A stretch of 64,000 nucleotides of DNA, taken from the NCBI GenBank assembly GCA_902794095.1, contig CADBFZ010000005.1:1-64000 (forward strand), in the 5' to 3' direction. The notes beneath the pieces were generated by a model, which saw nothing but the letters and a program-made list of their open reading frames with translations, was not told the origin of the DNA and ran no database searches. This document shows, piece after piece, positions 13,527 through 17,931 of this stretch. A program made the position numbers and the translations under genes. The first letter of the stretch is position 1, and every line of letters begins with the position of its first letter. The DNA is from an uncultured Lachnospiraceae bacterium (GTDB lineage: Bacteria > Bacillota > Clostridia > Lachnospirales > Lachnospiraceae).

Positions 13527-13820
13527 TCACGCTTCCTCGGGCTTTGCATCTCTTTCGAGGCACTCTTTGATGTAATCCATGAGTTCGTCGATGATGATTC
13601 CGTGTACGATCGCTGCCTCCTCGAGGGTCTCCATCATAGCTGCGGGACAGCTTACACAATGCATGCCTGCTTCCATGAGAATGGGGATGATCTCGGGCTT
13701 CTGGGTCATGATCTCGCCCAGGGTCATGTTGGATCTGATTCCGCAAACTTCTCTGACGGGCTCTCCGTCCATGGAAACTTCTTCTTCCATATCAAGGTTT
13801 TCTTTTAATTCGGTATCCAT
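13527..13820 (-). CDS. DUF1858 redox-disulfide domain protein
   Basis: The 97-residue soluble protein has an acidic N-terminal tail, then a helical domain with MTLGEIMTQKPEIIPILMEAG and a CVSC pair, typical of the DUF1858 'hybrid-cluster-protein-associated redox disulfide' family. Function is unproven; relatives occur in anaerobes near redox enzymes. A start at 13832 is possible, but GGAG lies six bases ahead of the second ATG (13820), which I use. It is divergent from the pyruvate formate-lyase gene. Confidence 0.8.
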   Translation of the reverse strand: MDTELKENLDMEEEVSMDGEPVREVCGIRSNMTLGEIMTQKPEIIPILMEAGMHCVSCPAAMMETLEEAAIVHGIIIDELMDYIKECLERDAKPEEA

Positions 13821-13944
13821 AATCTGCTCCATACAGTGATTGTTATGTTTAAATATCTCGTTACGAAAAGACAGTATATCTCATTAAAACCAATTTGGCT
13901 AATATGTTTTTGATTTTAATGAAAAATTTAGTTTCCGTGAAACC

Positions 13945-14036
13945 TTGTATACACGAAAAAGTCAGGTTTCATGGGACTTGTACGTAAAAAAGTACACGGC
14001 ATCACCTTGACTTCTGTATACAATCTTCACTATAAT
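13945..14036 (+). promoter_or_regulatory. Promoter and paired palindromes of the pyruvate formate-lyase locus
   Basis: TTGACT (14007-14012), an 18-base spacer and a perfect TATAAT (14031-14036). The palindrome TGTATAC occurs in TTGTATACA (13945-13953) and TGTATACAA (14015-14023). The second copy lies inside the promoter spacer, where a bound repressor would block polymerase. A further TGTAC-N8-GTACA repeat lies at 13979-13996. The leader of about 104 bases contains small hairpins. The gap 13833-14146 holds nothing else recognisable. Confidence 0.7.
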
Positions 14037-14146: not shown

Positions 14147-16189
14147 ATGGAAAGACCTGAATGGCAGGATTTCAAAACAGGTAAGTGGGACAGAGAAGTA
14201 AATGTCCGTGACTTCATCCAGAGAAACTATCATCCCTATGACGGAGATGAGAGCTTCCTTGCAGGACCTACACAGGCTACCAAGGATCTTTGGGCACAGG
14301 TTCTCGATCTTCAGAAGAAGGAGAGAGAAGCAGGCGGCGTTCTTGATATGGACACCAAGGTTGTTTCAACCATCGTTTCTCATGGACCCGGATACCTTGA
14401 CAAGAGCAAGGAGAAGATCGTCGGATTCCAGACCGACAAGCCTTTCAAGCGTTCACTTCAGCCTTGGGGCGGACTCAGAATGGCAGAGAAAGCTTGCCAG
14501 GACAACGGATATGAAGTTGATCCCGAGGTTTCCGCTTTCTTCGCAGTAAACCGTAAGACTCACAACGAGGGATGTTTCGATGCTTACACCCCCGAGATGA
14601 GAAATTGCCGTTCTTCACACATCATTACCGGTCTTCCTGATGCATACGGAAGAGGACGTATCATCGGTGACTATCGTAGAGTTGCTCTCTATGGTATCGA
14701 CAGACTTATCGAGGACAAGGAAGAGCAGAAGCTTTCCACCGATTACGTTATGACTGATGACGTTATCCGTCTTCGTGAAGAGCTCAGCGAGCAGATCAAG
14801 GCTCTTAAGATGATGAAAGAGATGGCTGCATCTTACGGATGCGATATCTCCAAGCCCGCAGCAAACGTTCAGGAAGCTATCCAGTGGACCTACTTCGGAT
14901 ATCTTTCATCCGTTAAGGAGCAGAACGGTGCAGCAATGAGCCTTGGCCGTACCTCCACTTTCATTGATATTTATGCAGAGCGTGACCTTGCAAACGGAAC
15001 CTTCACTGAGGAGCAGATCCAGGAGTTCATAGATCACTTCATCATGAAGCTTCGTTGCGTAAAGTTCGCAAGAACTCCCGAGTACAACCAGATCTTCGCA
15101 GGCGATCCCGTTTGGGTTACCGAGTCTCTCGGTGGTGTAGGCGTTGACGGAAGACACATGGTTACCAAGACCTCTTTCCGTTATCTCCACACTCTTGAGA
15201 ACCTTGGTGCAGCTCCCGAGCCTAACCTTACCGTTCTCTGGTCAACCAGACTTCCTCAGAACTGGAAGAAGTACTGCGCTAAGATCTCTATCACCACTTC
15301 TTCAATCCAGTACGAGAACGACGATCTCATGAGAGTTGTTCACGGCGATGACTACGGTATCGCATGCTGCGTATCCTCCATGGTTATCGGTAAAGAGATG
15401 CAGTTCTTCGGAGCACGTGCTAACCTTGCTAAGTGTCTCCTTTATGCTCTTAACGGTGGTATCGATGAAGTTACCAAGAAGCAGGTTGGACCTAAGTACC
15501 GCCCTGTAACCGGTGACGTCCTTGACTACGATGATGTTATGGACAAGTTCATCGACATGATGGAGTGGCAGGCTGAGGTTTACGTTAACACCCTCAACAT
15601 CATCCACTACATGCACGACAAGTATTGCTATGAGAGAGCAGAGATGGCTCTTCATGACAAGAACGTTAAGAGATATTTCGCAACCGGTATTGCAGGTCTT
15701 TCAATCGTTGCTGACTCACTTTCAGCTATCAAGTATGCTAAGGTTGAAGTTATCCGCGATGAGGACGGTATCATCACCGACTTCAAGACCACCGGCGAGT
15801 TCCCTAAGTATGGTAACGATGATGACCGCGTAGACGATATCGCTCAGATGATCGTTCACAAGTTCATGACCGCTGTACGTCGTCACCACACCTACAGAGA
15901 TGGTGTTCCTACCACCTCAATCCTTACCATCACTTCAAACGTTACCTATGGTAAGGCAACCGGTAACACTCCCGACGGACGTAAGAAGGGCATGCCTTTC
16001 GCTCCCGGAGCTAACCCTATGCATGGTCGTGACACCCACGGTGCTGTCGCTTCCCTTTCTTCCGTTTCCAAGCTTCCTTTCAACGATGCTCAGGACGGAA
16101 TCTCCAATACCTTCACCATCATCCCCGGAGCACTCGGCAAGGATGACAAGGTATTTGCAGGCGACATCGATCTTGACCTCAGCAAGTAA
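14147..16189 (+). CDS. pflB: Pyruvate formate-lyase catalytic core lacking the glycyl-radical domain
   Basis: Converts pyruvate and CoA to acetyl-CoA and formate. The 680 residues follow the PFL fold from [20 protein letters not shown] through [14 protein letters not shown] to the adjacent active-site cysteines Cys407-Cys408 in GIACCVSSM and the [14 protein letters not shown] block. The chain ends just after [10 protein letters not shown], where full-length enzymes (about 740-760 residues) enter the glycyl-radical domain containing RVSGYAV. That domain is encoded separately at 16516-16761. The stop is followed by a strong hairpin and two further genes with their own ribosome sites, so this is a split enzyme, not a frameshift. 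AGGAGG precedes ATG 14147. Codon use is that of a highly expressed gene. Confidence 0.95.
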
Positions 16190-16211
16190 TTAAAAGTAGC
16201 GAAGCTCCGAA

Positions 16212-16242
16212 GGCCACGTACCGGGTTCCCGGTACCTTGGCC
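16212..16242 (+). promoter_or_regulatory. Strong intercistronic hairpin after pflB
   Basis: GTACCGGG/CCCGGTAC around a TT loop, extended by GGCCA/TGGCC across a small internal loop. No T-run follows, so it is more likely an mRNA-stabilising or processing element than a terminator. It could set different levels of the core and the small subunits. Confidence 0.55.
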
Positions 16243-16284
16243 GGAAGGGCCGGATAAAAATAAATAAACGGAAAGGATACCACT

Positions 16285-16488
16285 ATGGATCAGAAAGACA
16301 TGATAGATGATCTTGTAAAGATGCTCGATGATGGATTCGCAAGCGGCACCGGACATGTCAATGTAGACACGTCGGAAGATCAGACGGATGTTAAGGATGT
16401 TACAACCATGGGATGTACGGACTGTTCCAGAACTCCTTTGGCTTGCAGCGTTCCTACGCTCCATCAGGGTATCGACGATTATCAGTAA
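16285..16488 (+). CDS. 67-aa Cys-rich protein resembling the start of the glycyl-radical domain
   Basis: Residues 8-27 (DDLVKMLDDGFASGTGHVNV) line up with the entry of the glycyl-radical domain in the next gene ([20 protein letters not shown]). The remainder has no RVSGYAV loop. It carries Cys44, Cys47 and Cys54 (CTDC, then LAC) and ends LHQGIDDYQ. It has its own GGAAAGGA site and ATG. It is soluble, acidic and sandwiched between pflB and the radical-domain gene, so it is probably part of the enzyme system. It may be a placeholder for the docking site, an assembly factor or a thiol-based switch; these are guesses. Confidence 0.75.
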   Translation: MDQKDMIDDLVKMLDDGFASGTGHVNVDTSEDQTDVKDVTTMGCTDCSRTPLACSVPTLHQGIDDYQ

Positions 16489-16515
16489 ACAAATCTTACC
16501 AGGAGGAAAAAAATC

Positions 16516-16761
16516 ATGGCAGAAGCATCTACCGCACAGGTTGGTAACCTTGTGAATCTTCTCGATGGTTATGCTACCAAGGGTGGCCATCATCTTAATG
16601 TTAACGTTCTCAACAGAGACACTCTTCTCGATGCTCAGCAGCATCCCGAGAATTATCCTCAGCTCACTATCCGCGTATCCGGATATGCAGTAAACTTTAT
16701 TAAGCTTACTCCCGAGCAGCAGGCAGACGTTATCTCCAGAACATTCCATGAGTCCATTTGA
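16516..16761 (+). CDS. Separate glycyl-radical domain of pyruvate formate-lyase (GrcA-like)
   Basis: The 81-residue protein matches the last 80 residues of normal [31 protein letters not shown], then [13 protein letters not shown] with the radical glycine Gly56, and the terminal helix [18 protein letters not shown]. It resembles E. coli GrcA/YfiD, which rescues oxygen-cleaved PFL. Here the neighbouring PflB has no radical domain of its own, so this subunit should be obligatory. AGGAGG precedes ATG 16516. It is followed by a terminator. Confidence 0.92.
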
Positions 16762-16783: not shown

Positions 16784-16817
16784 AAAGGACTGTCGCATAT
16801 GCGGCAGTCCTTTTTTT
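16784..16817 (+). terminator. Terminator after the glycyl-radical subunit gene
   Basis: AAAGGACTG...CAGTCCTTT hairpin containing CGCATATGCG, followed by a T-run. It separates the three enzyme-subunit genes from pflA. Confidence 0.85.
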
Positions 16818-17760: not shown

Positions 17761-17931
17761 ATGGCATATCAGATTGGCGAAGGATGCATCTGCTGTGGCG
17801 GATGTGAAGCACAGTGCCCTGTTGGAGCTATCAGCATGGGTGACGGCAAGTTCGAGATCGACAAGGAAAAGTGCATCGACTGTGGCGCATGCGCAGGTCA
17901 GTGCCCCGTTGCTTGTATCGAGCAGGCTTAA
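17761..17931 (+). CDS. 2[4Fe-4S] ferredoxin, 56 aa
   Basis: A clostridial-type ferredoxin beginning MAYQIGEGCICCGGC. The first cluster set is Cys9, 12, 15 and 19 followed by Pro; the second is Cys38, 41, 44 and 48 followed by Pro. Cys11 and Cys52 are extra. It carries low-potential electrons and could reduce PflA, but that link is inferred only from position. AAGGAGG lies upstream of ATG. It has its own promoter and terminator. Confidence 0.95.
   Translation: MAYQIGEGCICCGGCEAQCPVGAISMGDGKFEIDKEKCIDCGACAGQCPVACIEQA

Follow-up and report, generated by a model that had tools for sequence, protein, structure and literature searches.

A split pyruvate formate-lyase of Lachnospiraceae and its cysteine-bearing companion module

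Introduction

The pyruvate formate-lyase (PFL) of an uncultured, gut-type member of the Lachnospiraceae is, as predicted from its genes, a two-chain enzyme whose radical-carrying part sits on a separate protein. We examined a window of 64,000 nucleotides (the whole stretch of DNA analysed; contig CADBFZ010000005.1 of assembly GCA_902794095.1) in which pflB encodes a catalytic core, grcA encodes the glycyl radical domain, and a small gene that we call mid (a name used here only) lies between the two. We consider it very probable that the enzyme consists of two chains and is accompanied by a conserved third module. The split is in itself no novelty: it was already implied, since NCBIfam holds a model for such small proteins, the autonomous glycyl radical cofactor GrcA3 (NF038360), and the Protein Data Bank (PDB) holds two cores without a radical domain (chains 38la and 38lb). 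A sequence-only reading of the window had observed the split correctly; it overstated the novelty of the split and overlooked the third gene. The less expected part appears to be mid as a regular companion of two-piece PFL and its exchange, in cis or in trans, with a tail of PflB.

Small proteins that carry a radical glycine are known from other systems. The GrcA (YfiD) protein of E. coli, which works with PflB, and Y06I of phage T4 likewise carry the radical glycine on a small separate protein, are activated by PflA, and complete a PFL that lacks a radical of its own (PMC8683613). Formate production is intermediate in an E. coli strain that has GrcA together with PflB G734A (PMC12338860). E. 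coli has a full-length PFL for which GrcA is a spare, whereas here a full-length PFL was not found. As of October 2025, most glycyl radical enzymes, PFL included, were described as homodimers of one polypeptide on current data (PMC12590467). A search of literature from which most subscription journals were absent found neither a report of a split PFL nor one of the cysteine module, and nothing on the module as a free protein, on its kinship with the radical domain or on its exchange with a tail.

The catalytic core and its radical subunit

The features of the locus are collected in Table 1. PflB scores 1091.3 bits against TIGR01255, above the curated cut-off of 994.2, and covers profile positions 2-665 of 744, while the 81-residue protein covers positions 663-744. 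The glycyl radical loop is absent from the PflB chain and the rest of the profile lies in the small protein, so the earlier claim that PflB is missing its RVSGYAV domain holds. PF01228 (Gly_radical) is cut at the gap: PflB holds its positions 1-51 and the small protein positions 50-106. Numbered by the E. coli enzyme, the alignment of the core ends at residue 681 and that of the small protein begins at 683. The catalytic cysteine pair of PflB, by homology C407/C408 in ACCVSSM, is invariant in a 28-sequence alignment that includes the window's own sequence. An AlphaFold model of the core from 28 sequences, too uniform an alignment, was not usable (pLDDT 46). PflB does have 680 residues, as the sequence-only reading stated; it does not end right after GALGKDD, because 13 more residues follow before the TAA stop codon at 16187-16189. 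The 81-residue gene downstream is likewise real, in a different frame and with an AGGAGG site of its own, as pflB has; the gap between the two open reading frames (ORFs) is 326 bases and not 327.

Table 1. Features of the split pfl locus (window positions)
Feature	Position	Strand	Remarks
Promoter-like site TTGACT-18-TATAAT	14007..14036	+	Upstream of pflB; consensus match only, 11/12
pflB core, formate C-acetyltransferase, 680 aa	14147..16189	+	Without C-terminal glycyl-radical loop
Structured RNA element	16190..16284	+	Between pflB and mid; nearest relatives only
mid, middle gene, 67 aa	16285..16488	+	C-half cysteine motif GCTDCSRTPLACSVPTLHQG
grcA, GrcA3-type glycyl-radical subunit, 81 aa	16516..16761	+	Radical glycine by homology G56, IRVSGYAV
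Intrinsic terminator-like hairpin	16784..16813	+	13 pairs and T run; between grcA and pflA
pflA, radical SAM activating enzyme, 260 aa	16872..17654	+	TIGR02493 290.5 bits, cut-off 231.75

The small protein reaches 157.6 bits against NF038360 (cut-off 158; match 2-78 of 78) and matches PDB entry 6owr from chain residue 67 onward. It differs from E. coli GrcA/YfiD in lacking the N-terminal disordered half of about 60 residues, being 81 residues long in all, and in the presence of the cysteine module at its locus. The radical protein also matches 1538 phage records, most of them of enterobacteria, which we read as GrcA of the T4 type. The promoter-like site upstream of pflB is weak, since four such sites were seen in the region against 6.9 expected in shuffled sequence. 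Upstream of pflB, a divergent gene (13527-13832, minus strand) matches TIGR03980, a hybrid cluster protein-associated redox disulfide domain, with 80.2 bits. Downstream of pflA, positions 17761-17931 encode a small 4Fe-4S ferredoxin (NF058577, 75.9 bits), a possible electron donor for PflA.

Is the small protein a necessary subunit or a spare part, as in E. coli? The genome of the window (2.3 Mb in 22 contigs, 80% complete) contains one pflB, one mid and one grcA, and no full-length pfl as assembled. Besides pflB and grcA, one radical-domain match lies above the cut-off, a 723-residue protein (78.8 bits) that by its sequence we read as NrdD, the anaerobic ribonucleotide reductase; a further match below the cut-off lies on contig C1. 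A spare-part arrangement, in which the core would be a relic and the working enzyme a full-length PFL encoded elsewhere, could draw on the 80% completeness of this genome and on the single-chain PFL that accompanies a split one in at least three family genomes (G132, G284, G296; at most three PflB candidates were scored per genome) and in two genomes outside the family (G548, G649). Against it, a 99% complete genome of the same genus (G116) has a single PflB match, 99% identical, and all 20 near-complete (94-100%) relatives with mid have one PflB match each and no second, full-length PflB. Their radical domains were found on stand-alone grcA, on the core fragment and on frames of 713-768 residues (69.8-86.1 bits) similar to the NrdD-like 723-residue protein; in two of the 20 it also lies on a longer frame, of 851 residues in one and 878 in the other. 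The dN/dS of pflB relative to the window is 0.015-0.068 in six pairs (a complete pflB ORF, by our own rule, was available in 53 of 80 loci, the rest being omitted from that count only), and that of grcA is 0.042-0.152 in ten pairs. We regard a spare-part system as very improbable. Because neither the window's genome as assembled nor any of the 20 relatives shows a full-length PflB, and because the arrangement is conserved under selection, the small protein would be an obligatory subunit provided that the PFL works, as the sequence-only reading had proposed. The controlled radical exchange or oxygen-damage repair that this reading also suggested is conjectural. The name of NF038360 says cofactor, whereas the genomic evidence here says obligatory subunit. 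A second stand-alone grcA away from pflB was seen in five of 20 split-PFL genomes (G290:C30, G080:C21, G031:C17, G221:C21 and G208:C38) and might serve the split enzyme as a genuine spare.

The middle gene

A scan of the genome collection with the mid alignment gave 529 matching stretches. Of these, 512 proved to be genuine on confirmation, and the best 80 were analysed. In all 80, pflB stops before mid and grcA follows. Since these loci were selected by mid, the figure describes the company of mid and not its frequency; mid is present in 77 of 299 family genomes. The next gene is pflA in 68 of the best 80 loci, 11 have no pflA in the stretch examined, and one has it upstream on the other strand. 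The 80 loci come from independent assemblies, among them Lachnospiraceae bacterium P6A3, whose record bears no MAG label. The same order in relatives excludes the suspicion, raised with the first reading, that the stop at 16187-16189 is a sequencing error. That the stop codon and the middle ORF together are sequencing or assembly artefacts has a negligible probability in our view and nothing found in its favour, as the arrangement is identical in 80 of 80 mid-selected loci, intergenic lengths differ among relatives, and the mid protein sequence is kept while synonymous sites change. Compared with the window's copy, mid has a dN/dS of 0.020-0.062 in nine of ten pairs and an infinite dS in the last one; the gene is under strong purifying selection.

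The N-terminal half of mid is homologous, by profile comparison, to the first 30 residues of GrcA and of the PFL radical domain. Its first 29 residues match GrcA residues 2-31 (hhalign probability 95.8, E 6.6e-9), and its N-terminal part matches the radical domains of single-chain enzymes with an E of 5.6e-8. Alone, 17 of 32 mids are recognised by the GrcA3 model, at scores well short of its cut-off (best E 8.6e-7), and the window's own only with an E of 0.04. The mid profile, run against 391 class genomes, picks up the beginning of the radical domain in single-chain PFLs as well. Because its N-terminal half matches GrcA and the radical domains, mid probably retains the docking helix and strand with which the glycyl radical domain begins. 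The RVSGY glycine loop is absent from all 32 aligned mids and a cysteine segment stands in its place. In the window, this segment reads GCTDC-x6-C-x-VPTL and follows a variable linker. Residues M1, G23, H24, C47, A53, C54, P57, T58, L59 and D64 are invariant in 32 diverse mids. Two of 69 mids, those of L084 (G026) and L102 (G012), stop after the first cysteine pair (GCTTCSQ and GCTDCAK) and lack ACxVPTL.

We found no family of its own for mid in Pfam or NCBIfam, no Pfam match, no mid-like chain or other match in the PDB, no match in plasmids, and in PHROGs a best E of only 0.14. Modelled alone, mid has a pLDDT of 58, with a helix at residues 3-19 and the rest disordered. Two further ideas were rejected. 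A TGA was reported with the mid of G445 at an approximate position; there is no sign of selenocysteine, because the translation shows no stop within the cysteine motif. The motif as a mimic of the catalytic loop is too weak to claim: a matrix of mids ranks ACCVSSM first of 674 windows of PflB (4.4 bits, the next 2.7), and a matrix of tails ranks AAPEPNL first and ACCVSSM second.

The space between pflB and mid is filled by the RNA element of Table 1. It consists of CTCYGAAGGCYACG, a variable apical stem and CCTTGGCCGGARGG, and has 13 consensus pairs, four of them with compensatory changes, in ten sequences. It is not an intrinsic terminator, because a T run is absent after it. Its 3' motif occurs once in the genome, a search of 49 further loci returned the element in L172 only, and Rfam has no match at it.

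The cysteine module in cis and in trans

We analysed 130 loci, 127 with pflB and three with a displaced mid only. The 127 are those among the matches listed, which reach down to about 69% identity with a part at 63-66%, and single-chain enzymes are therefore under-sampled in them. A PflB tail was counted by our own rule, as 20 or more residues after LGK that include two or more cysteines. By these definitions, 69 of the 127 loci are split with mid adjoining and a PflB tail without cysteine, 36 are split with a cysteine-bearing PflB tail and without mid, and five are split with neither on the spot; 16 are single-chain, and one more is single-chain with linker cysteines. Four of the five exceptions carry mid elsewhere: at another locus in G002, G282 and G297, and as a divergent mid detected by profile in G130. 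Hence 109 of the 110 split loci have the module in one form, and G288 has it in neither form by a profile search of the family genome. No split locus has both forms together (0/110), and the 36 tail genomes do not overlap with the 77 that carry mid. The displaced mids of L163 (G282) and L164 (G297) lie near a gene read as proB (glutamate 5-kinase), and the pfl loci of these two genomes have the order pflB-pflA-grcA. The neighbours of displaced mid genes gave no functional hint in the three genomes.

Some of the tails resemble mid. A hidden Markov model of the C-terminal half of mid detected 16 of the 36 tailed PflB (E<0.01), with no hit in the 91 others or in 2540 shuffled sequences, and a profile comparison of tails with mid C-halves gave a probability of 96.5 (E 8.8e-10). 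A shared origin with the C-terminal half of mid is thus suggested for those 16 tails and not for the other 20, which include the CACCEPN type and very short ones and were not matched at this threshold. Two cysteines are present in 26 of the 36 tails and three in the other ten; some tails are short, for example GCCEGTIE. Because tailed enzymes lack the docking half, the cysteine part must be able to work without it. The 766-residue single-chain PFL of L125 (G096), which lies in the split clade, has the linker CGCEEVTC between core and radical domain and looks like a tailed core re-fused to GrcA.

The two PDB chains are both named "Formate acetyltransferase"; 38lb (739 residues) aligns with core residues 4-676 and 38la (687 residues) with residues 6-667. 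Neither is among the 33 PDB chains matched by the radical protein, so both are cores without a radical domain, and another group would therefore have such a split enzyme in hand. In 38lb, 54 residues follow LGK, beginning with SGNVMFGECDMC, with two cysteines in the first 21; 38la ends two residues after LGK.

Occurrence beyond the family and evolutionary history

A class-wide search with the 38lb core returned 30 loci, 25 of them outside the family (10 single-chain and 15 split). Among these 15 split loci, mid is present in four (in G555, G404 and G350, and in G445, where it follows grcA), seven have a cysteine tail (G403, G401, G377, G596, G580, G648 and G498), and two have a short CC tail (G631 and G489). 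The remaining two, L282 (G649) and L290 (G548), have grcA directly after pflB and neither cysteine tail nor mid in the stretch examined. That both of these genomes also hold a single-chain PFL may be chance.

We placed 126 cores on a quick, midpoint-rooted tree without bootstrap, which shows 37 of its 123 inner branches as open. A single branch (SH-aLRT 98) separates off all split enzymes. With them are six single-chain enzymes, which form a clade of their own (99) inside the split clade, and one fusion with a cysteine linker. The six have no linker cysteines and their genomes are absent from the list of 77 with mid; in the five re-searched by profile (all except G143), only their own radical domain was found. 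With the other single-chain enzymes as outgroup, the nested six are most simply read as re-fused enzymes that lost the module. The mid and tail states are intermingled, with 15 changes for each label, of which well-supported branches force at least seven for mid and at least five for the tail.

A proposed function for the module

In the two-chain enzyme, the 680-residue core would supply the catalytic cysteine pair, the 81-residue GrcA3 protein would complete it in trans with the radical glycine and the final strand of the barrel, and PflA would install the radical on GrcA3. This assembly and its activity are modelled on E. coli GrcA. For the module, we tentatively favour a placeholder or loader for the vacated radical-domain site, and rank radical quenching second and metal binding third. 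Mid may dock where GrcA3 docks and would thereby act on the empty core. The cysteine segment, the only piece common to mid and the tails, would be the working part. Sitting at the vacated site, the module could occupy or mark a core without GrcA3, keep its catalytic cysteines safe, and yield to GrcA3 when the enzyme is loaded or reloaded.

Results on a truncated E. coli enzyme bear on this reading (PMC8683613). When E. coli PFL lacks residues 696-759, YfiD binding is undetectable and the radical is 32-fold below that of cleaved PFL with YfiD, so residues 696-733 are taken to be a recognition element; YfiD is activated only with cleaved PFL. Once activated, the truncated enzyme is as active as the wild type (PMC8683613), and a core without this region can therefore work without a mid-like part. 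The natural core lacks the whole of this region and breaks off sooner still, close to E. coli residue 681; in mid, a relative of the start of the absent region is supplied in trans.

Could the module instead be a thiol quencher, whose cysteines reduce the glycyl or thiyl radical with a hydrogen atom and so switch the enzyme off safely, for example under oxygen or substrate shortage? Such a role would fit a cis tail and a trans protein equally, two cysteines after the docking strand are invariant in 32 aligned mids, and an accessory subunit of benzylsuccinate synthase (BSS) makes the active enzyme shorter-lived, perhaps because it quenches the radical (PMC12590467). A permanent quencher in the tail would, however, need to be held off during turnover, and we judge quenching rather unlikely.

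Binding of a metal or an Fe-S cluster, in a structural or electron-transfer role, is less probable again. The window's mid has a possible four-ligand set (C44, C47, C54 and H60), and its size is like that of the 7-10 kDa accessory subunits described in PMC12590467. The set is not kept: all 69 aligned mids have C47 and 67 have C54, whereas position 44 is cysteine in 47 and position 60 histidine in 34, and most tails have just the two cysteines counted above. With two invariant cysteines in 32 mids and three in the window's, the cysteines are too few for a [4Fe-4S] cluster of mid's own. The BSS beta and gamma subunits and the gamma subunit of hydroxyphenylacetate decarboxylase (HPAD) are also small extra subunits of a glycyl radical enzyme, and one of these accessory subunits tunes the radical chemistry; they bind [4Fe-4S] (with HiPIP-like folds for BSS; PMC12590467), whereas mid is a relative of the radical domain.

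The placeholder or loader thus remains our first choice, at a confidence somewhat short of even. We would give about the same credence to its fuller form: mid as a decoy derived from a radical domain, which carries cysteines, takes up the space in the empty core, governs GrcA3 loading or radical discharge, and in the course of evolution has switched more than once between free protein and enzyme tail, which would make it the first recognised accessory subunit of a PFL. Taken as a whole, the explanation of a two-chain enzyme with a third module as placeholder or loader seems to us rather more probable than its negation.

Significance

Split PFL is not rare, being present in at least 110 of 299 sampled Lachnospiraceae genomes. 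Nature here provides an enzyme whose radical domain can be supplied, withheld or labelled as desired. By mixing three proteins with PflA, one could approach the questions of half-site loading, of radical quenching and of how the empty site is recognised. Further accessory subunits of glycyl radical enzymes may be unannotated, according to PMC12590467, and the cysteine module would be such a subunit.
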